64,000 bases of DNA from Hyphomicrobium sp. D-2 (GTDB lineage Bacteria; Pseudomonadota; Alphaproteobacteria; Rhizobiales; Hyphomicrobiaceae), in assembly GCF_029872155.1 (NCBI RefSeq), contig NZ_JARXLA010000008.1:870501-934500 (forward strand), given 5' to 3'. Positions 1 through 9,266 of the stretch are shown one piece after another. Position numbers and translations under genes: made by a program. The notes under the pieces are model-generated. The model saw nothing but the letters and a program-made list of their open reading frames with translations, did no database searches and was not told the origin of the DNA. Position 1 is the stretch's first letter; each line of letters starts with the position of its first letter.

Positions 1-1066
1 TGCGCGCCGCCATATGATGCTCAAGAGTGAGAATCTTGCACTTTGAGGCATCGGACCAATCCTGATCTCCCGTAAGATTCGCCATATAGACACGGACAAG
101 CTGTTCCATCGCTGGTTTGTCCGGTACCGCAGTTGGGAATACAAAAAACCTTACCCAACCTTCAGGGCGGTCGTCGCGCGGCTCCTGTTTGTGGGCGTCT
201 GCGCCGCCACGGATCTGGTTGATGAGTCGAACAATACGTTTAGGGCAGCGGTGATTTAGTTTTTTCTCAGGTATGCCCCACCCCGCTGGTATCTCAGTCT
301 CGATCCGTTCTTTTCCATCGGGATAGATACGCTGCATGGTATCGCCAATGAGACCTAGGCAAAACCGATTCGCGTGAGCCTTTTGAACCACGAACAAGGC
401 GTCGATGAGCACGCGACTTGTGTCCTGGCTCTCGTCAATCAGGAGAAACGGATACCTCTCGACGAACATGCGCTGCATTAGCGGCTTGGTGAGCAGAAAG
501 CTCGAGAAGATCTTTATTACCTCGCTGTGGTTGAGCGCGTTCCGTTCCCGGTTGTCGCCATTGGGATTGTAGGTGAAGACTTTGAACTCAGGCAGCCGGG
601 CCAGCCGCCGCTGCTTGGACTCGAGTTGGGCTTGGCGAGCGGCGGATGCCTTCGTACCGGCACGACCCTTGGCCTCCTCGGCGTGAAGCTCAGAGATTTC
701 GCGCTTGAGATTGTCTTTCAACCACACCCGAATGTCCGTGTTCAAGCCCTGTATTTGCATCCACGCAAAGCTATGAATGGTGCGCACAACGAAAAGCGGA
801 TCATACTCGGTGCGGCGGGTGATCTCATCGCAGGCAGCATTCGTATAGGTGATGACCGCAACTTGGCGACCGCGCAGGCGGAGAACATCGCGGTAGGCGC
901 TCGCCAAATATTTCAAAGCGTTTACCAGGGTACGCGTCTTGCCTGAACCAGCTCCGGCAAAGAGGAAAAAGCTGGTTGGGTTCTCCAAGTTCAAAAATCG
1001 AACCAGCTCATCCTCTACATGATCATCAACTTTGACGTTCAGCGGCGCGTTTTCAGGAGTCTTCAC
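1..1066 (-). CDS. UvrD/Rep-family DNA helicase, GajB-like, 3' end outside the window
   Basis: Superfamily 1 helicase expected to be the ATP-hydrolysing partner of the upstream OLD nuclease in a Gabija-like antiphage system. Reading from a GTG at 1066, the frame stays open for 355 codons to the window edge. Walker A is AGAGSGKT (residues 37-44), motif Ia is around ITYTNAACDEI (72-82), motif II is LLIDESQD (208-215) and motif III is GLIGDTMQRIY (238-248). The N-terminus lacks the long leader of housekeeping UvrD, and the core is compact, as in GajB. The GTG overlaps the stop of the nuclease gene (GTGA), so translation is probably coupled. The remaining helicase motifs lie beyond position 1, so completeness cannot be judged. 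Alternative: an OLD/UvrD defence pair outside canonical Gabija. Confidence 0.85.
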   Translation of the reverse strand, partial: MKTPENAPLNVKVDDHVEDELVRFLNLENPTSFFLFAGAGSGKTRTLVNALKYLASAYRDVLRLRGRQVAVITYTNAACDEITRRTEYDPLFVVRTIHSFAWMQIQGLNTDIRVWLKDNLKREISELHAEEAKGRAGTKASAARQAQLESKQRRLARLPEFKVFTYNPNGDNRERNALNHSEVIKIFSSFLLTKPLMQRMFVERYPFLLIDESQDTSRVLIDALFVVQKAHANRFCLGLIGDTMQRIYPDGKERIETEIPAGWGIPEKKLNHRCPKRIVRLINQIRGGADAHKQEPRDDRPEGWVRFFVFPTAVPDKPAMEQLVRVYMANLTGDQDWSDASKCKILTLEHHMAAR

Positions 1067-3348
1067 GCTGCCACCTCCTCAGCAAGACCGAGTTCGACCT
1101 GGCGCTGTTCGAGCTGCCCGGCCAGCCAAAGTAAGCCAGCTGCAATGTAGGTGGGCGGGTTTAGGGAACGCGGGTTCTCAAGTTCGAGCAGATCAAGCGC
1201 AAACTCAGCCTTGCCTCCGCCTGCCAGCGCAGCTTTGAGCGCGGCACCCAACGCATTCAGATCTGCGCTATCGGTAATAGCGCTTCGGAATTTCGCAATG
1301 AGACCCGTTCCAGGCAGCGTCTCGAAGAGCACGAGATTTGCCATAACGACCGCGTCCTCGAGCGTGTAGGTAAGCGCCTCAGAGGTTTGGCCTTTGAACG
1401 TTGCTTGGTGGGGTGACTGGTACGCCACGCGCACGGAAAAACCCTCGTCTACATAGCTTTTGACCTTCTCCGCCTCGGGTTTGTCTAGCAGAGGGTCCAG
1501 CTCATTGATGATCGGCCACCATGTTCGCAACGTGGCGTTCCGGGTGGTGCAGTCAGTCCCGCGGACCGGGGGCGCACTGGCACCGGCAGCGTTGCACGAA
1601 TCGAGGTCAGTAATGACGAGTGTAGTGAGCCCGATCTTTTCAATGAGGCTCCTCAGCTTGTGGGCGTGACTGCCTCCGATTTCAAGCCAAGTGATGTAGC
1701 TCTCCGAGAGCTTCGCAAATTCTGGGTGAGAGTTCACGAAATGGGGCACGAGAATGCGCTCAGCTGGCCCTTCGATAAGGACGGCCGCATCTGCAAAGAA
1801 GAGATCGCAGTGGGTGACACGCAGATATCTGGTCACAAACCGTTTGGTATCTGCGTCTGCGCCAAATGCACTCTCGAGATTGACCACGCACGACGTAGGT
1901 ATCGCGTCTGCGTCACCTGGTAAGCGACGGAAATAACGGAGTGCGTCGAACTCGCACTCGTGAGCGATATGGCTGGAGTGCGTGCTTACCACCATCTGCG
2001 TGACAAAGTTGGGGCTGTCGCCAAGATCGGGGTGATTGCGTAGGATCTTGTGGGCTTGTCGTATGAAGACCTGCTGGACCTGGGTATGCAAATGCACTTC
2101 GGGCTCTTCAATCAACACCAAGTGCAGTGGGGGAATGATCGTGTCGTCCGAAGCCTTGTGTTTGGCCTTGCCAACCCGCATCCAGCTGTCGCGAAACGCC
2201 ATGAGGCGGAACACCATAGAGATGAGATTTTGGTACCCGAGCCCGTTCGAATCCTCCGGCAGGTAGAGATCCGTGCTGGCACCGCCATTTTGGATCGGTA
2301 TCACAAATTGCACCGCAGCCTCGTGGTTGAGCCCCTCAACCGGCCTGAGACGCGTAGATATGTTCAACTTTGGGTCTGTGACGCCAGGGTAGCCAAGCTT
2401 GTGCATCTCTTTGAGGGGACTCTTGAACCCGTCACTTAGACGCAAGTTGAAGGCCTTCTGTGCCTCCTCGATAGCCTTGAGCGCAAGGAGGTCTTGTGCA
2501 TCTGGGTTTTCATATGGATCGAGGTGGCGGGCGTAGTATTGACGAAGCTGGGCCGATAGCTTTCGCGAGTCACTGACGGTGAGTAATTCGCCATCGTCAT
2601 TTTCTTCCCCAGCGGCCCCAAATCCTCGCTGGGCACTAATCTCGTCAATGCGAATGAGCCCCTGAAATGGGTCGCCATCAACGGGGTCGCTGTCATTGAG
2701 GGCCTGTGGTCTAGCCTTTCCATGCTCAGGATCAACGCAGGCAGCAGGATCGAGGACATAAGCCTCAACCTTGAAAAACGACGTCAAGCGGCGCTGTAGG
2801 AATTCGACAAGATTCTGTGGCCAAATCGCCAGCTGGAAATCCGCTGCATCTCGACCTTGCTCGGCTGCTAAGGCAGCGCCGGCTGTTTGCAACGCTAGCG
2901 CTTGAGCACGCGCAGTCACGTACTCTTGTTGAAGTTGAGCCGCATCTTTCGGCTCCAATCGCATTCGCACGCCAAGGCGGCCTCCATCCCAGTCAAGGGT
3001 AGGAAGAATTTTCTGGACGTAGTGGACTTCGTTTTCAGCAACGTGGAGCCACACATCCAGGAACGGCAACACAGGGTCCCATCCTGGTACTGGAAGGTCC
3101 TGATTTGCTGTGTGCGCAGCTTCCCACGCGGCACCCATTGCGTTGATCGTCGGCCAATGGGCAAGCGTGAAATCGTTGAAGCAAAAGCTGGATCGTTCGC
3201 GATCGACAAGGAAATATCGCAGCGCCGTTATTGCTGTTGTTTTTCCGCTGTTGTTGGCGCCGACGAACACGGTTTTTCCCGCCGACAGACCCACTCGCGT
3301 TGAAAGCAGCTTCCGAAAATTTGCTATCTCTACGAATTCAATGCGCAC
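1063..3348 (-). CDS. OLD-family ATP-dependent endonuclease (ABC-type ATPase plus TOPRIM), GajA-like
   Basis: A protein of 761 aa with two parts. The ATPase shows Walker A GANNSGKT (30-37), a signature-like NGLGYQNLI (368-376), Walker B LVLIEEPEVHLH (410-421) and an H-loop STHSSH (455-460). The C-terminal TOPRIM nuclease has the acidic residue in VLIEG (E526) and the DLD pair (D581, D583). About 240 residues of mostly helical sequence sit between Walker A and the signature. In Gabija, GajA cuts DNA and is restrained by nucleotides, while GajB hydrolyses them. I chose the GTG at 3348 because GAGGG sits 7 nt upstream and the conserved start RIEFVEIANFRKL follows at once. The longer reading frame to 3498 would add 50 unconserved-looking residues and cover the promoter. 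It is longer than the classic GajA (under 600 aa), so Gabija-like is a family-level call. Confidence 0.88.
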   Translation of the reverse strand: MRIEFVEIANFRKLLSTRVGLSAGKTVFVGANNSGKTTAITALRYFLVDRERSSFCFNDFTLAHWPTINAMGAAWEAAHTANQDLPVPGWDPVLPFLDVWLHVAENEVHYVQKILPTLDWDGGRLGVRMRLEPKDAAQLQQEYVTARAQALALQTAGAALAAEQGRDAADFQLAIWPQNLVEFLQRRLTSFFKVEAYVLDPAACVDPEHGKARPQALNDSDPVDGDPFQGLIRIDEISAQRGFGAAGEENDDGELLTVSDSRKLSAQLRQYYARHLDPYENPDAQDLLALKAIEEAQKAFNLRLSDGFKSPLKEMHKLGYPGVTDPKLNISTRLRPVEGLNHEAAVQFVIPIQNGGASTDLYLPEDSNGLGYQNLISMVFRLMAFRDSWMRVGKAKHKASDDTIIPPLHLVLIEEPEVHLHTQVQQVFIRQAHKILRNHPDLGDSPNFVTQMVVSTHSSHIAHECEFDALRYFRRLPGDADAIPTSCVVNLESAFGADADTKRFVTRYLRVTHCDLFFADAAVLIEGPAERILVPHFVNSHPEFAKLSESYITWLEIGGSHAHKLRSLIEKIGLTTLVITDLDSCNAAGASAPPVRGTDCTTRNATLRTWWPIINELDPLLDKPEAEKVKSYVDEGFSVRVAYQSPHQATFKGQTSEALTYTLEDAVVMANLVLFETLPGTGLIAKFRSAITDSADLNALGAALKAALAGGGKAEFALDLLELENPRSLNPPTYIAAGLLWLAGQLEQRQVELGLAEEVAA

Positions 3349-3376
3349 GGTATCGCCCTCGTCTGATGATGGAGAG

Positions 3377-3405
3377 TTTATACCACAACGGAGCAAATCT
3401 GTCCC
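3377..3405 (-). promoter_or_regulatory. Probable promoter of the nuclease/helicase operon
   Basis: On the minus strand a GGGACA (-35-like, 3400-3405) and a TATAAA (-10, 3377-3382) are separated by exactly 17 nt. They end 28 nt before the chosen GTG start. The 214-nt gap between the recombinase stop (3563) and this start has no other gene. This suggests the defence operon is transcribed on its own and not only by read-through from the recombinases. The -35 matches consensus in four of six positions. Confidence 0.45.
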
Positions 3406-3562
3406 GGGCCGCACTGGGGAAGACACGGGCGAACGCGACTGATTACGTCTATAGATATCGGGCCGCCGGATTGCCCGTGCGTCCCCACTGGATCTCATCT
3501 GCTGCGAACGTATTGATGATCAGCTCCAGCGCGCCGGACGAGTTTGCTTGGCGAATGTCAGG

Positions 3563-5719
3563 TCAATCAGATTTTCTTGTGAGTACTTTGCGGTAGCGGC
3601 CCAAATCCCTTTGGATTGCGTCCCGCTGCAACGGCGACAGTCGCTTGGTCTTGAGCAGATCCTCGCCATCGGTAATCGCCTTGGCCCACAGCGGTCGGTG
3701 ACGGCTCGTGATACAGGAGTTGGGACAACGATCTGGACTACACTGGGCCATCGAGGGCGTCGCTGCTTCTGTCTTGCCATTGAGACATAACGCCGTCGCT
3801 GGATCGAAAAAGCAGTCATTCATGACGCCGACGAACAGCGTTTTCGCTATGTGTGCTAGCATCGAGCGGACGCGTGTGGGATCGGCAATATGGCCGGGTA
3901 GCGGATCGAGCTTGTCGGCGGTGTGCTGCAATTCCCTCGAGATGCGCGCCGCGGCCGGACCCATCAGCACTTCGCCGCTACGGTGACGGTCGAAATAGGA
4001 TAGTACGTCGTCGAGCTGTCCGAGACCACGCTCGCGCTCCACCTCGTCGCGGAAGCCGGAGGGGCTCGACCCAGCGTAGCCTTCATAGGCGGCGATGCTG
4101 GCATGCTTGTATTGGATCATGCCGGCGACGGTACCGAACGGTCGATTGGCAATGTGCCAAGCGACAGTACGCCGGAATTGTCGTGTGGTGATATGCCAGG
4201 GCTTGCCGTCTCGGCCGGGCGGAATGGCAGGCGCGGAGGGCGTGCTCAACTGCGCGTTCAGGTGGTCTCGGAACATGTTGAGACGGCGTACGATCTCGGC
4301 CCCGATGTGGTCCTTTGTGCCTCGCCTCTCGTGGAGGACGCGCCAAAGCGTATTGCCGCCGCGGCGCTCTCGAACGCGCTCAGTGAGTTGTTCGAGAACG
4401 TGGATCGCCTTGGCCACTGGTTCGATCGTCGTCCAAGTCTCGGGCTGGCCGCGGCTATCGCGGCGCTTGTAGATTTTGCTTTTCACTTGGTAGCGTTCGA
4501 TGATGCCGTCTTCGCTCCGTTGGACCCGAACGCAGCCCGAGCGCATGGCCTGCACCTCGGCATCGCGCATGCCGCTGAGATAGGCGCAGACTATGTAGCA
4601 GGCGGCCTGCAGCATCTTCTCTTCAGCAAGCACTGTGGTTGAATCAAAGCGTGGCCGCCAAGAAAGCCCCGTGTCCGGGTCGTGCGAAATGGGCGTATCC
4701 ATACCGCCGGCCTCGACACCGAGTTCGGCAACGGCCTCTATGATTTGCTGCTTCGTCGCTTGGCGAAAATGCGCACAGTCGACAAGATTGTTCTGATCGA
4801 TCCCGATGTGCTGATAGATAAGAGTATAATTGACTGGCGGAGTCGTTGTTTTAGTCGCGGGATCGGTGCGGATGGAACCGTTAGGGGTAGTTGTCCAGAT
4901 CGGCATGCTACGGCCGTTGGCCCGAAGGTGGCCGATGTAGGCGATCAATCGCTTGCGCCAGCGCTGTCGGCGTACTGCCGCAGAGGATCCCTCGTCCTTC
5001 GAGAATAGCTGCTTCTGCCGCTCGTTCAGAGCCTCGAGCTCGCCACGAGCGGCAAGGATGTCGGCAGAGAAGATGGTGATGTATTTAAGCGACCACTTGA
5101 GTAGTGGAGAGATAATCTCCTCCGGCAGGCGCGGCGTCTTATTCTCGCCAGGAATACTCTTTGCGCCTGTGAGCGTATAGATCGAGCGGCCGTTCCATGG
5201 CAGCAGCTTGAGCCCGCCGGAGGGCATGTACTCGCGAAAGTGATGGAGATCATAAACGACCTGCAAAAGGGGAGCGCTCGACCGGCGTTCCCGACCTTGG
5301 GTGATTAGGTGAGCCAGATAGGTATCAAGAAGGCCTTGATTGACGCCTGCGAGTTTGCACGAGCCTGTGATGTCAGCAACAAATTCGAGAAAGGGCCGAG
5401 CGTTGTTGAATGTCCGACGGATACTGACCGGCGGCAGCCGCATCTGAAAGCCTGGAACATCGAAGTTAAGCCGAGCATAGAGAAATTCCCTAAGCGTCTG
5501 CTCGACGGCAGCATCCTCGATGTCGTCGAAGTGTACTGTGAACTTATGGGAGCTCGCGTTCTCGCGAAACACGGCCGGCGACAAATCCCACGTGCCGTCT
5601 TCGAAGCGGGGCAACGCTGATCGCCTGTAGCCGCTCCGCAGCGGCGCACTCCGCAAGACCGGCTTACCATCGAGCGGATGCCGGAACGCTGCTGAGATAG
5701 GCGTGGAGACTTGCGTCAT
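3563..5719 (-). CDS. Large tyrosine recombinase, third gene of the trio
   Basis: 718 aa. The C-terminal catalytic region shows arginine I in SGMRDAEV (R385), the box II region TTRQFRRT and a distal box KHASIAAYEGY with H539 and the expected nucleophile Y548 nine residues on. Box II reads R-x-x-R (513-516) where most tyrosine recombinases have H-x-x-R, and the usual G before H539 is K. Residues 636-669 hold five cysteines (636, 645, 660, 665, 669), which could bind zinc or DNA. The start ATG overlaps the stop of the second recombinase gene (ATGA). It probably acts in a complex with the other two proteins to cut and join the ends of the island. The divergent box makes its own catalytic competence uncertain. 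It is followed by 214 nt and then the defence operon. Confidence 0.85.
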   Translation of the reverse strand: MTQVSTPISAAFRHPLDGKPVLRSAPLRSGYRRSALPRFEDGTWDLSPAVFRENASSHKFTVHFDDIEDAAVEQTLREFLYARLNFDVPGFQMRLPPVSIRRTFNNARPFLEFVADITGSCKLAGVNQGLLDTYLAHLITQGRERRSSAPLLQVVYDLHHFREYMPSGGLKLLPWNGRSIYTLTGAKSIPGENKTPRLPEEIISPLLKWSLKYITIFSADILAARGELEALNERQKQLFSKDEGSSAAVRRQRWRKRLIAYIGHLRANGRSMPIWTTTPNGSIRTDPATKTTTPPVNYTLIYQHIGIDQNNLVDCAHFRQATKQQIIEAVAELGVEAGGMDTPISHDPDTGLSWRPRFDSTTVLAEEKMLQAACYIVCAYLSGMRDAEVQAMRSGCVRVQRSEDGIIERYQVKSKIYKRRDSRGQPETWTTIEPVAKAIHVLEQLTERVRERRGGNTLWRVLHERRGTKDHIGAEIVRRLNMFRDHLNAQLSTPSAPAIPPGRDGKPWHITTRQFRRTVAWHIANRPFGTVAGMIQYKHASIAAYEGYAGSSPSGFRDEVERERGLGQLDDVLSYFDRHRSGEVLMGPAAARISRELQHTADKLDPLPGHIADPTRVRSMLAHIAKTLFVGVMNDCFFDPATALCLNGKTEAATPSMAQCSPDRCPNSCITSRHRPLWAKAITDGEDLLKTKRLSPLQRDAIQRDLGRYRKVLTRKSD

Positions 5720-7509
5720 GTGTGTGCTTCCATGGGCAGATAAGGCTGATGCTCTAGCCGCCTTGCTTTCTCACGCGCATCGGCGACGACCGCCTCGGAG
5801 AAGGCTGGGAGCACCTGCTCGGTGATGCGCGACCAGGCGCGACCGAACTTCGGCCACCAATCGGCATCGGCAGTGTCGGCGCGGCGCGCGACGATGAAAT
5901 CCAGGAATGCGATGATGGCCGGAAGCTTTCGCGCCGTAATGACGGCGTTGTGGCACTCGAGGCACCCCCAGAACGGTTCGGGACACGGTTCGCCTTCCGC
6001 GGCGAACGGGCTCTTGTGGAAGCCGACACAACTGGCAAGCCAGACATCTTGCTTCCCGTTCAGCACGCCGCGCGCTTCGGTGATGGACAAAGGCAGCTGG
6101 AGCGAGGCCGGGTCCTTCCGGGCGGCAGCTTCGTTTTCGGGCGTCAACAGGACAGGCTCGAGTGCCGAAGTCAGCGCGTCGCTCAAGCCGTCGGCAACCG
6201 CTCGCTCGTGCAGATGGCGCAGCGATGGCAGATCAGCATAGTGGCGCGCGGCGATCTCGGGGGTGTGACCGACGGCGAAACGGCCGAGATCACCCTGGGT
6301 CTTGGTGTACCAGAGCGACTTGTGGGTTTTGCGAAGATGAGTGAGAAGCAGGTGCAATGGTTTCCCATCGTCGTCGATGATGCCATGTCTTGCGACCCAG
6401 TTGTGCTTGAGCTTCCGGAAACTGCCGGGGAAATCACCGAGGAGACGGCCAAGATTGAAGTAGACCCACAGATTCTCACTCGGCTTGTGCTTCCGCGCAG
6501 CCGCGGTGAGTTCGATAATCATTCGAATGATCCCGCCCGCGGTCGACGAGGCACCGTCGCGGACACGCAACCGCTTCCACTCTGATCCACGCGCGCGCCG
6601 CTTGCAGTATTCGATTTCGACCGTCCCTGCCGCCGGATTGCGCAGACAGTCGACACGCAGGGCCTTGATGCACTCGGGCTCCAGTCCCGTTTCCAGGCTC
6701 AGTAGGACGAAAAATGGGATGAGATCATCGACGAGTAGATAGTGCCGGGCGTGAAGATTTCGACTTGGCCGGCCTACTTCCATGCCAAGCCGCCACGAAC
6801 GGACGCGGAAATTTTTGACCTTCGAATAATCGAAGTGCACTGTGCCCTCTGTCTCAATCACAGCGTTGATCGTCTCTAAGCACTCGCGCAAAATGCTGTC
6901 TGAGTGCTCGATGGGGGGAGGCGACTTAATCCGTTGCGCAATGGCCAGGACGTCGGCGCGTGCGGCATCGCGAAGCTGTTTGGCAACGTACCTGCTATAG
7001 GCATCGCGCGGCGTCGAGCGAGCCAAGGGGCGTGCGCTCGTGTAGCGCAGACGTTGCTGCAGTTTCTCATCGACGACTCCAGGCAGACCTGCGTCCACTG
7101 AGCGCAGAACGCTGATCACGTGAGCGAGAACGCAATGGCGAGCTTTGGTGCCTTGCGCTTCGAGCCAGCTCTCGAAGCCGTCGATGTGCTCGGCGCGCAG
7201 GTGCTCTGGGCCCTCGACTTTGGCTTCCTCGTCGAGAAATCTGAAGAAGCGCTTCAGCGCCTGGGCGCGACTAGCGACGGTCTTGCGCACTACCGTCGGT
7301 GCCAACTCCCTTAGCGCCGCACCGAACGCTAGTGCCAACCTGCGTTGCCTGACCTCAACGAGGTCGACGAAGGCGGCACCACCGTGTGCCGTATCGACGG
7401 TGAACCGGAGACCTGTAATGGAAGGCGTTCGCTTTTCAGATGGTTTAGCGCCCGCAGACATGAACGAGACACGCCGACCACGACGTGGGCGATCCTTCTT
7501 CCCACTCAT
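5716..7509 (-). CDS. Large tyrosine recombinase, second gene of the trio (non-canonical catalytic boxes)
   Basis: 597 aa from an ATG that overlaps the upstream stop (ATGA). An in-frame extension to 7587 exists, but the coupling fixes the start. The distal box GHTPEIAARHY is intact (H415, Y424). The arginine I region reads TGLEPECIKAL with glutamate at the usual arginine (E277), and box II reads THLRKT with threonine three residues before R393 instead of histidine. Near the C-terminus C494, C509, C516, C519 and H520 form a cysteine cluster (GCLECH). These changes suggest either a structural partner that depends on the other two recombinases or a distinct active-site arrangement. The N-terminal half resembles a core-binding domain by position only. 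Confidence 0.85.
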   Translation of the reverse strand: MSGKKDRPRRGRRVSFMSAGAKPSEKRTPSITGLRFTVDTAHGGAAFVDLVEVRQRRLALAFGAALRELAPTVVRKTVASRAQALKRFFRFLDEEAKVEGPEHLRAEHIDGFESWLEAQGTKARHCVLAHVISVLRSVDAGLPGVVDEKLQQRLRYTSARPLARSTPRDAYSRYVAKQLRDAARADVLAIAQRIKSPPPIEHSDSILRECLETINAVIETEGTVHFDYSKVKNFRVRSWRLGMEVGRPSRNLHARHYLLVDDLIPFFVLLSLETGLEPECIKALRVDCLRNPAAGTVEIEYCKRRARGSEWKRLRVRDGASSTAGGIIRMIIELTAAARKHKPSENLWVYFNLGRLLGDFPGSFRKLKHNWVARHGIIDDDGKPLHLLLTHLRKTHKSLWYTKTQGDLGRFAVGHTPEIAARHYADLPSLRHLHERAVADGLSDALTSALEPVLLTPENEAAARKDPASLQLPLSITEARGVLNGKQDVWLASCVGFHKSPFAAEGEPCPEPFWGCLECHNAVITARKLPAIIAFLDFIVARRADTADADWWPKFGRAWSRITEQVLPAFSEAVVADAREKARRLEHQPYLPMEAHT

Positions 7510-8936
7510 GCTGCGACTCTCACGACTGATGGCGACGTGATCCCGGAAAGTAACTCCTCGACGGCGGTATCGACTGTGTCCTGGCACCCCGCGAGATGGT
7601 CAAGGTAGAGGTAGGTGGTGGCTACACTTGAATGACCGAGCAGTCTCTGAACCTGCTGCAGGGGGTCGCCCAGCAGCCGACGGTAAGCGACACCCGATAG
7701 TTCGTTGTCGTTCGAGGTATCGCCGAACCGCTGCCGAATGAGCAAGGCAAGCATGTGTACGGCGAAGCTATGACGTAGCTGGTGCGGACTAACTTCGAAG
7801 GCGAGGTCCGCGTCCTGGCAACGCCGCGAAGCGCGAGCAAATATTGCCTCCCAGCTGTTGGGCGCGATCGGTATGCCTATCTCGCTGAGCCATAGTGCGG
7901 CGGGCTCAATGGGTTTGCCGCTGTGCTCGCAGAGCACGAGCCGCCGCCGTTCTTCGGGGGTCACAGTCTCCAGTCGCAGCGGTTTACGATTCCCATTTCT
8001 CGACATAACTTCGATCGTGCCGTCGTTGATGTAGGCCATGATTGGGCCGCGCATGCGTTGCGAGCCGTCACGTGCCTGGAACTTCGCTACGCCGTTCGCC
8101 CGCTCAACCTCTAGGTAGCTGCGAAGCCGTGAGAGCAACGAAGCCGGAATGCGGATGGTGCGGCCCTTGTCACCCTTAGTGAGTGCAGCAGGAAGACGGA
8201 CCGCGACCTGCTTATCGCCGTTGGCTGTCGTTTTGATCGCCTCCTCGACCTCGCACGCAAGGAATGACGAGGCTTCCTCGAGCCGCAGCCCAGTCGAAAT
8301 GAGCAGATCGGCAAACAATGCGTTGCGGCTGCCATTGCGATCGCGCGCGCCATGCCGCTCCCCACCATCAACCGCCAACCCGCGCAGCCCGACATCACGG
8401 AACCGGCGGTAATCTTCGATAGTGATGAATTTTACGTCGGATCGTCTCGCGGCACGTTCGTATGCTTGGTTGCGGGCAATAGTGATCGTACGGCCTTGGC
8501 CGGGCTGTATCCGGCGCCACACATCGCGATATGTGAATGGGCTTTGTGCAATTACGCTTTCTTCGACCGCCCACCGGTAGAGTTTGTCGAGGGCCGCAAC
8601 TGCACGATTCCACGAAGAGGCCGAAATACGGTTTGCAGCGTCGTCTTGGCGACGGGCACGATGATAGCTATCAACGTCGGCACGCGTGGCTTGCCAAACG
8701 GTCTTGCTTCGAGCCTCATCGAGAAACCGAACCCATACAAGCAGATCGTAAGCGTAGCTGCGCACGCTGTGGTGGGAGCGCACTCCGTTGAGCGGCAGAT
8801 CCGCCAAGAAGCGATCGAGGTTGGCGTCGTAGGTGTCGCCGTCCCGGCGAATACTTGGGGCTTGCCCTTGGCGGCTCCAGCCCGACGCCACACCCTCCAC
8901 GGCCGGTAAGGCACGGTGTTCCAGCAAAGTAATCAT
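7506..8936 (-). CDS. Tyrosine recombinase, first gene of the trio (canonical active site)
   Basis: 476 aa from the ATG at 8936. An N-terminal SAM-like core-binding domain (about 40-140) is followed by a phage-integrase catalytic domain: R218 in STGLRLEE, a lysine in LTKGDKGR (about 254), H385-x-x-R388 in HQLRHSFA, H435 in LLGHSSVATTYLY and nucleophile Y444. All expected catalytic residues are present, so this is probably the main strand-exchange enzyme of the trio. The open frame runs further to 9032, but that part lies in a 47-nt inverted repeat and looks non-coding. An ATG at 8960 is the alternative start. The stop overlaps the start of the second gene. Confidence 0.9.
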   Translation of the reverse strand: MITLLEHRALPAVEGVASGWSRQGQAPSIRRDGDTYDANLDRFLADLPLNGVRSHHSVRSYAYDLLVWVRFLDEARSKTVWQATRADVDSYHRARRQDDAANRISASSWNRAVAALDKLYRWAVEESVIAQSPFTYRDVWRRIQPGQGRTITIARNQAYERAARRSDVKFITIEDYRRFRDVGLRGLAVDGGERHGARDRNGSRNALFADLLISTGLRLEEASSFLACEVEEAIKTTANGDKQVAVRLPAALTKGDKGRTIRIPASLLSRLRSYLEVERANGVAKFQARDGSQRMRGPIMAYINDGTIEVMSRNGNRKPLRLETVTPEERRRLVLCEHSGKPIEPAALWLSEIGIPIAPNSWEAIFARASRRCQDADLAFEVSPHQLRHSFAVHMLALLIRQRFGDTSNDNELSGVAYRRLLGDPLQQVQRLLGHSSVATTYLYLDHLAGCQDTVDTAVEELLSGITSPSVVRVAA

Positions 8937-8981
8937 GGACGAGATCCACTCTCGACGCATGCACTTGGGAAATTGCCCCTT

Positions 8982-9028
8982 CGCATTGGAAGAAGACTCC
9001 CGCGCGCGGGAGGTCTTCTTCCAATGCG
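8982..9028. repeat. 47-nt near-perfect inverted repeat next to the island end
   Basis: The left arm (8982-9004, beginning CGCATTGGAAGAAGAC) and the right arm (9005-9028, ending GTCTTCTTCCAATGCG) pair over their whole length with one extra base and no spacer. They meet at CGCGCGCG. It lies between the start of the first recombinase gene and the island end at 9110, about 50 nt upstream of the chosen start. Possible roles are a recombinase binding site, an operator, or a cruciform that controls the trio. There is no T-tract, so a terminator is unlikely. Confidence 0.9.
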
Positions 9029-9071
9029 GCAACTACGACAACTGGATCAAACTAACAGCGCGAGTCTATAT

Positions 9072-9266
9072 TCATTGTCCAGATAATCCTTTGCCAGACT
9101 GTCCAGATAAGACATCGGGATCATCGATGGCATAGGTGGCCAGCTTGTGGTCGGGTGAAAAGAACTGCCAGACGGTTGTTTTCTTGAAAATGAGGTCCGG
9201 ATCCTTCGCCAGAGCAGCCGCCGCCGTTAGCGTTATCAGACCAAGGCAGAGGGCAAGGGCGCGCAT
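9072..9266 (-). pseudogene. creA: creA, 5' fragment interrupted by the island
   Basis: The first 52 codons from the ATG at 9266 encode a signal peptide (MRALALCLGLITLTAAAALA) and the CreA-family start KDPDLIFKKTTVWQFFSPDHK...DDPDV. The frame then enters the island repeats and stops at 9072 after 12 foreign residues. Full CreA proteins are about 150-170 aa and have a cysteine-containing core after this point, which is missing here. A good ribosome site (GGGAGA) lies 8 nt before the ATG, and an in-frame extension to 9425 is not needed. CreA is a small exported protein of unknown function. The rest of the gene should lie at the other island end. Confidence 0.85.
9076..9110. repeat. Two direct 11-bp repeats at the island terminus
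   Basis: TGTCCAGATAA occurs at 9076-9086 and again at 9100-9110, with starts 24 nt apart. The second copy ends exactly where the creA coding match begins. The spacing and terminal position fit recombinase arm or core sites at the end of the element. The left end is not in the window, so whether it is an inverted or direct match cannot be seen. Confidence 0.75.

Follow-up and report, generated by a model that had tools for sequence, protein, structure and literature searches.

A putative transposon with three recombinase-type proteins and Gabija cargo in creA of Hyphomicrobium sp. D-2, and its relatives in ardC-type genes

What kind of mobile element splits the creA gene of Hyphomicrobium sp. 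D-2, and is creA its regular target? The window analyzed here is a stretch of 64,000 nucleotides (C8:870501-934500, C8 being contig NZ_JARXLA010000008.1) of the 3.79-Mb genome; an adjoining stretch, L003, was fetched and continues leftward of the window. At the left edge, the initial annotation had proposed a genomic island that combines three large recombinases with a Gabija-like antiphage operon and is inserted into creA. We denote the three recombinase-type proteins RecA, RecB and RecC (RecA here is not the repair protein of that name). Comparison with relatives leads us to conclude, with good confidence, that the locus holds a transposon that carries this trio, inserted into creA with a 6-bp exchange of the type described for strand-biased circularizing elements (SEs) and Tn554, and that its usual target is ardC and its cargo is Gabija.

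The split creA gene and the 6-bp exchange

The element occupies C8:866148-879610 (13,463 bp, no N; G+C content of 0.578, slightly under that of the window flank) and interrupts creA directly after codon 52 (V). In agreement with the initial annotation, the creA frame stops at an 11-bp repeat, with the break at window position 9110/9111 and a repeat copy at 9100-9110. The remainder of creA lies beyond the left edge of the window, at C8:865839-866141 on the minus strand, and aligns with positions 28-131 of PF05981 (E = 9.7e-33; the single match in the genome in a CreA family search); the presence of this 3' fragment at the far end therefore bears out the main prediction of that annotation. Between the far end of the element and the creA 3' part stand 6 foreign base pairs, CGCCCA. 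Removal of the element together with CGCCCA yields a continuous in-frame sequence, ...YAIDDPDV-EGVTCYF..., as in sister genomes.

The empty site, which the initial annotation had named as the source of the exact target, is represented by the sister locus L031, where creA is intact, the GATGTC core is identical, and both the element and CGCCCA are missing. In L031, creA is flanked by genes for PAP2 (92%), RmuC (96%), a 155-aa open reading frame (ORF; 88%) and a CxxCxxCC protein (84%); among the six creA loci tested for neighbors, some are shared by L023, L025, L026, L027 and L031, and none by L030. Uninterrupted creA was recognized by a motif probe in 5 of the 15 fetched creA loci (own locus included), all of which read DDP[D/E]VEG with no extra codons; the other 10 gave no match to this strict probe.

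The ends of the element correspond to those shared by near-identical copies in different surroundings, TTATCT[G/T]GACAGT... and ...GACTGTCAGGATA[T/A], and form imperfect terminal inverted repeats. The 11-bp repeat TGTCCAGATAA is found at 9076-9086 and 9100-9110. A reading of this repeat as a target duplication was rejected, given that both copies lie within the element, at a spacing of 24 bp, and that the outer copy belongs to the terminal repeat.

In SEs, the 6 bp of the target are found at the intA side and the 6 bp of the donor at the far side (PMC9345347, PMC10214605), and the same polarity is reported for Tn552-II and Tn554 (PMC12486829); here and below, published systems are cited from excerpts of the respective papers. 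Set against these descriptions, the polarity of the sequences at creA and in relatives appears to be the same. Of the 34 copies that are readable at both ends, 28 have two different 6-bp cores and 6 have identical ones. The target half of the rule holds at creA and at three related loci, L101, L106 and L053: the sole empty homologue of L101 and two of the four of L106 (two plasmids, one strain) carry exactly the recombinase-side core, the other two of L106 are one base off this core and two off the far-side core, and the empty homologue of L053 shows the same difference, one base against two. The empty homologue of L067 (82% alike) is two bases off the recombinase-side core compared to four off the far-side core, and that of L073 (84% alike) gives a tie between the cores.

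Relatives and their usual target

When 84,980 species genomes were scanned with a RecC alignment, 188 related places were identified, of which the best 80 were fetched. These best 80 loci bear mostly alphaproteobacterial names; several metagenome-assembled genomes are labelled only Proteobacteria or Pseudomonadota, and two loci, L045 and L071, are labelled as other phyla. A RecC match is present in 326 plasmid records. Recombinase sides could be read in 46 and far sides in 45 of the 80 loci, the others running off the contig, containing N or having no end that falls within the permitted mismatches. An ardC-type motif is encoded in each of the 46 recombinase-side flanks, namely EEL (41), EEI (4) or EEC (1) followed by VA (38), IA (7) or LA (1); many of these copies are closely related, so the 46 are not independent events. 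For four joined flanks, the ardC-type identity comes from database matches (ArdC family, zincin-like metallopeptidase or antirestriction protein where annotated), and for the remaining flanks from the motif only; related genes within the elements have matches to ArdcN and MPTase-PolyVal. Nine more recombinase-side ends were read in eight further loci, and 8 of these are of the ardC type. On the evidence of these flanks, the usual target of the family is probably an ardC-type stretch, with creA exceptional, and the initial view of creA as the target does not hold as a general statement on the family.

The exception among the nine further ends, L039:10460 on a Sphingobium yanoikuyae plasmid, is a family member with non-ardC flanks and a second example of a non-ardC target. 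In Agrobacterium plasmid pAspH13-3a (L035:5996-20097), two trios of the family stand in succession, each with its own end motif.

Many of the elements carry an ardC of their own: on a count of the longest ORFs, 31 of 45 elements have an ArdC-like ORF behind RecC, and in the 19 distinct element-borne copies the target sequence EELVAEL is replaced by EECCVEI, EECLVEI, EECSVEI, EEICAEL, EEACAEL, EEATAEL or EELTAEL, so that VA is never found at the core. Among the longest ORFs, no element-borne ardC was seen in the present element or in the Hyphomicrobium elements. Where it occurs, the element-borne gene would restore the function of the target or give immunity.

The mobility of the element and its mechanism are what we infer from these sequence comparisons. 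A circular copy would form, carrying the 6 bp beside its recombinase end; upon integration, the 6 bp of the circle would go to the far end and those of the target to the recombinase end, following the SE/Tn554 rule. The family would usually target a sequence that is frequent on plasmids, namely the segment that follows HExxH in the metallopeptidase domain of ArdC. In the present genome, where ardC was not found, the element would have taken a secondary site, and creA looks like such a site. The hairpin in the leader of the recombinase genes would curb transcripts that enter the trio from the interrupted target gene, and the Gabija cargo would guard both the host and the element against phage.

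The recombinase trio and its place among known systems

RecA is an ordinary tyrosine recombinase in which, judging from the motifs in the alignment, the usual catalytic residues are present; its start (8936) and that of RecB (7509) were set by alignment to relatives. By our own motif reading, RecB shows the box pattern of tyrosine recombinases, but with the first Arg changed to Glu and the box-II His replaced, and RecC retains R385, R516, H539 and Y548, with Arg in place of the box-II His. No Pfam family was matched by RecB and RecC of the present element, and a recombinase Pfam match was found in none of 21 RecC-type proteins. In profile comparison with hhalign, the counterparts of RecC are the third genes of two Pseudomonas aeruginosa plasmid loci (E = 7e-18), and those of RecB are the second genes of three loci, the same two and one on a Cupriavidus plasmid (E = 1.6e-23). 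In BLAST searches against seven four-gene reference loci of the SE/GInt type (either SE or GInt), the A-A and C-C pairs were found in 7 of 7 and the B-B pair in 6 of 7 (L125_B remained unmatched), with about 20-36% identity to the trio in the BLAST segments. Some pairs are weak: RecC with L127_C has E = 0.002, and RecA with L125_A has E = 7e-4, weaker than the off-pair match of RecA with L122_C (4.5e-4). The RecB model found nothing but tyrosine recombinases among its 35 best Foldseek matches, albeit with low TM-scores and only one at E <= 0.001 (the best, Cre, E = 9e-4); the RecC model gave weak matches to Cre (best, E = 0.016) and topoisomerases, none at E <= 0.001. Profiles of RecB and RecC had 0 matches in a sequence search of the PDB. 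Our reading of the motifs points to RecB and RecC as recombinase-like proteins with partly altered catalytic sets.

A fourth gene is required in the described systems, GinD in GInts (PMC5385486) and Srap in SEs (PMC10214605). ORFs of at least 40 aa from the 45 bounded elements (own included; many near-copies) were compared with the seven reference fourth-gene proteins (phmmer, E 0.01; profile of the seven, E 1), and none of the 45 gave a match. In the control, six of the seven references find each other in most pairs, and L125 is found by two others only (E = 0.003-0.007). The family PF19776 is absent from the present genome, with the control positive in one genome, below the cut-off; of two fourth-gene proteins scanned, only that of L126 matches this family, just under the cut-off. 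The relative L047, of 5,719 bp, consists of the trio and 231 bp behind RecC. In a tree of large recombinases, the 24 three-gene rows are on one long branch with 100/100 support, where the program warns that long branches meet; within it, the RecC of the present element is placed beside that of Hyphomicrobium zavarzinii in a deep subclade (99/100).

Likeness to SEs extends to the gene order of an ordinary recombinase, a degenerate recombinase-fold protein and a large recombinase (intA-tfp-intB), as read from the motifs and the pairing with the four-gene loci, and to the imperfect inverted ends and the target side of the 6-bp rule (SEs including SE-6283 and SE-6945: PMC9345347, PMC10214605). Furthermore, SE-6283 carries a bcp gene as if complementing its target bcp, which can be compared to the element-borne ardC of relatives, and a putative terminator motif is marked near the attL of SEs, comparable to the leader hairpin (PMC9345347, PMC10214605). 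Unlike in SEs, no Srap was found and the target is of the ardC type; the SE survey, as excerpted, reports no homologues in Alphaproteobacteria (PMC10214605). With GInts, the ginABCD genomic islands, the element shares the operon of three integrases at one end, varied cargo, a short far end, a strong site preference and a 6-nt exchange, but no ginD was found, and the degenerate protein is the second here and the third (GinC) in GInts (PMC5385486). Site specificity and an att site of 6-7 bp supplied by the donor are shared with Tn554 and Tn552-II, and Tn552-II carries a target-gene-like tgl that may rescue the target, again resembling the element-borne ardC (PMC12486829, PMC10214605); unlike in Tn554, no TnpC-like gene was found, there are three recombinase-type proteins compared to two, and the hosts and the target are different. 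Three overlapping recombinase genes also characterize RIT elements, but in the archetype the proteins are of 315-410 aa with the catalytic Tyr in all (PMC10214605) and the element is about 3.5 kb long (PMC3414803). A RIT element was ruled out by the protein sizes (476, 597 and 718 aa), the length of 13,463 bp and BLAST, the best match to a short trio beside the element of L037 (taken for a RIT) being that of RecA with its third protein at E = 0.001.

The element thus appears, by analogy, to act mechanically like an SE or Tn554. The clade is homologous to SE/GInt-type operons, yet, given the mismatch in the fourth gene or in the protein sizes, we assign it to none of SE, GInt, Tn554 and RIT. 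A search of the titles and abstracts of open-licence papers revealed no description of an ardC-targeting trio, which is no proof of absence. The initial claim that the element belongs to no named family accordingly stands insofar as no such clade was found in this literature, and has to be qualified given the homology to SE/GInt operons and the 6-bp rule of SE and Tn554. Paraburkholderia phytofirmans plasmid pBPHYT01 (L128:3001-13932) contains a four-gene operon of the SE/GInt kind with a second recombinase gene set close behind.

Several observations weigh against our interpretation. No movement of the element has been seen, and it is present once in the genome. The creA insertion is a single case in the family, and its site is only weakly similar to the ardC consensus, with 1,763 of 207,952 local positions scoring at least as high. 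The ArdcN search, with a control positive in 2 of 14 genomes, found no match in the present genome, and neither did a 300-aa ArdC query, which was run without a positive control; among relatives, the ArdcN search is positive in 13 of 34, but within the genus only 1 of 7 other members gives a match. Lack of ardC is therefore ordinary in the genus and need not account for the creA site. Far-side cores encode RA, TA or CA in 6 of 45 cases and recombinase-side cores in 0 of 46, which is not predicted by a simple rule of brought-in bases; element-borne ardC genes, often with T or C at the core, might have been past targets. Confidence in the AlphaFold models of RecB and RecC is low (mean pLDDT of 67), and the comparison with SE, GInt and Tn554 is one with published descriptions.

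Three alternatives have to be considered. That the element is an ordinary GInt or SE, with a ginD or srap gene that was lost, is too diverged or is supplied elsewhere, so that the family is not distinct, is compatible with the gene-by-gene pairing with four-gene operons and with the GInt-like operons reported from Alphaproteobacteria (PMC5385486), although a later survey, in its excerpted text, is without ginC-ginD blocks in this class (PMC10214605). Moreover, L125, the most diverged reference, is barely detectable by the others, and hence a diverged fourth gene could escape the search. Nevertheless, none of the 45 elements gave a match while six references find one another in most pairs, PF19776 is unmatched in the genome (a family that one of the two reference genes scanned matches, just under the cut-off), L047 has room for little beyond the trio, and the RecC clade is fully supported on its long branch; we regard this explanation as unlikely.

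Even less plausible to us is an old fixed chromosomal island, now immobile, to which Gabija was added later, for example, by the serine resolvase. The single genomic copy, the 70% RecC identity of the nearest relative in the genome collection and the presence of a resolvase gene within the element fit this scenario, but the three recombinase genes are open, both ends and the 6-bp scar are intact, creA is in frame without the element, and no internal end of the same kind (12-base probe, up to two mismatches) is present besides the doubled right end. Finally, creA might be a regular, non-accidental second target of a Hyphomicrobium-like subclade, given that the site, scored against the ardC profile, ranks among the best 0.85% of local positions and the element belongs to the deep subclade with H. 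zavarzinii. The H. zavarzinii copies, however, lie inside ardC-type motifs (EEL-VA), and no second creA insertion was seen among relatives, albeit in the course of analyses none of which was a search aimed at creA insertions; this possibility, too, seems rather improbable.

Our preferred interpretation thus remains a transposon of the SE/Tn554 manner with ardC as the usual target. A fuller proposal, according to which the trio defines a distinct family that needs no fourth factor, is tuned to plasmid ardC by the 6-bp exchange, carries its own altered ardC that restores function and makes a poor target, and is delivered to the chromosome, as in creA with Gabija, when ardC is absent, is tentative, and we would stop a little short of calling it probable. 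If it is true, the SE/GInt/Tn554 kind of transposition extends to a widespread clade with mostly alphaproteobacterial names. Natural versions of 5.7-6.6 kb exist in which no fourth gene was found, and therefore the need for such a gene is open to test. The family would also represent a mobile element that is tied to a plasmid anti-restriction gene and, in the present copy, to defense cargo, with exact sites defined.

Leader hairpin and cargo

From the recombinase end, the order is the terminal repeat with the second motif, the hairpin, RecA, RecB, RecC, GajA, GajB, a GHKL protein, a serine resolvase and the far end (Table 1); each of the three recombinase genes overlaps the next by 4 bp.

Table 1. 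Features of the element and of the interrupted creA gene (window positions unless L003 or C8 is given)
Feature	Position	Strand	Evidence or remark
creA 5' part, 52 codons	9111..9266	-	synteny with sister locus L031
Native 6-bp creA core GATGTC (codons D-V)	9111..9116	-	adjoins recombinase end; identical in sister locus L031
Element, right part	1..9110	-	creA halves on either side; ends as in near-identical copies elsewhere; left 4,353 bp beyond window
Recombinase-side terminal repeat TTATCTGGACAGTCTGGC	9093..9110	-	14/18 bp match to far end TTATCCTGACAGTCAGCC at L003:15648-15665, counted by eye
Second end-motif copy TTATCTGGACA	9076..9086	-	24 bp inside; H. zavarzinii relatives have doubled end with equal spacing
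Leader hairpin between end and first recombinase gene	8982..9028	-	16-bp perfect stem by script, longer folded as RNA; hairpins at the equivalent position in relatives covary
RecA, XerD-like tyrosine recombinase, 476 aa	7506..8936	-	Pfam Phage_integrase and SAM-like domain; XerC/D models; alignment
RecB, 597 aa from conserved Met27 of ORF	5716..7509	-	alignments, hhalign, Foldseek
RecC, large recombinase-like, 718 aa	3563..5719	-	PHROG integrase, E 6.5e-5; hhalign
GajA, Gabija ATPase/TOPRIM, 761 aa, GTG start	1063..3348	-	PADLOC GajA, E 9e-276, residues 1-753
GajB, Gabija UvrD-like helicase, 635 aa	1..1066, continuing to C8:869659	-	PADLOC GajB, E 4e-249, residues 12-626
682-aa protein, N-terminal GHKL-type ATPase domain	L003:16923-18971 (C8:867423-869471)		between GajB and resolvase
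Serine resolvase, 198 aa	L003:16225-16821	+	near element far end, outside window

A 47-bp self-match in the leader was considered as a second copy and rejected, being the hairpin itself. Among 28 distinct leaders of the family, the best perfect stem beats all 40 shuffles in 25, with one tie and two that do not exceed them. Seventeen leaders were aligned, and pairs were counted on 15 of these (14 distinct); the leader of the present element and the other Hyphomicrobium leader were left out because their sequences are unalignable. In these 15 leaders, a 19-bp stem is paired in 97.0% of the cells, and the pairing is lost when the partners are slid. Changes on both sides are found in 39 cells (shuffled mean of 14.1, 0 of 500 as high) and in 9 of the 19 pairs (shuffled mean of 6.8, 26 of 500 as high). 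Related sequences may exceed shuffles without any structure, and therefore this covariation is support and not proof. RNA folding of five leaders yielded z-scores of -4.9 to -9.8. We take the hairpin for a probable barrier to transcripts that enter the recombinase operon from the interrupted target gene, with a DNA binding site as a possible alternative.

As the initial annotation had described, the recombinases are at one end and the cargo follows, with the trio next to the creA 5' part and gajA/gajB beyond. The placement of all genes on one strand applies to the trio and gajA/gajB, all on the minus strand; the serine resolvase outside the window is on the plus strand, and the island is therefore not entirely one-stranded. 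The Gabija system is complete, with adjacent full-length gajA and gajB (PADLOC). No PADLOC model matched the GHKL ATPase protein, and it is possible that this is a defense gene of an unfamiliar type.

For comparison, 78 cargo ORFs of at least 120 aa were drawn from 22 of the 44 other bounded elements, picked against near-copies. PADLOC detected neither GajA nor GajB among them; Gabija is thus peculiar to the present copy within the elements sampled, and the pairing of the trio with an antiphage module is not typical. Six PADLOC models matched these ORFs, mad1 in five (best E = 7e-14) and five others, including LmuB, by a single weak match each. Pfam detected 51 families, and the 25 shown include ArdC domains, MerR, MerB, pyridine-nucleotide oxidoreductase, cation efflux, chromate transport and metal-ATPase. 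The Hyphomicrobium elements, judged from the starts of the ORFs, carry a heavy-metal ATPase and related genes. In H. zavarzinii, near-identical copies of 11,028 bp are present on three contigs (L040-L042), in at least two different ardC-type flanks, with metal-resistance cargo according to the ORF reading.

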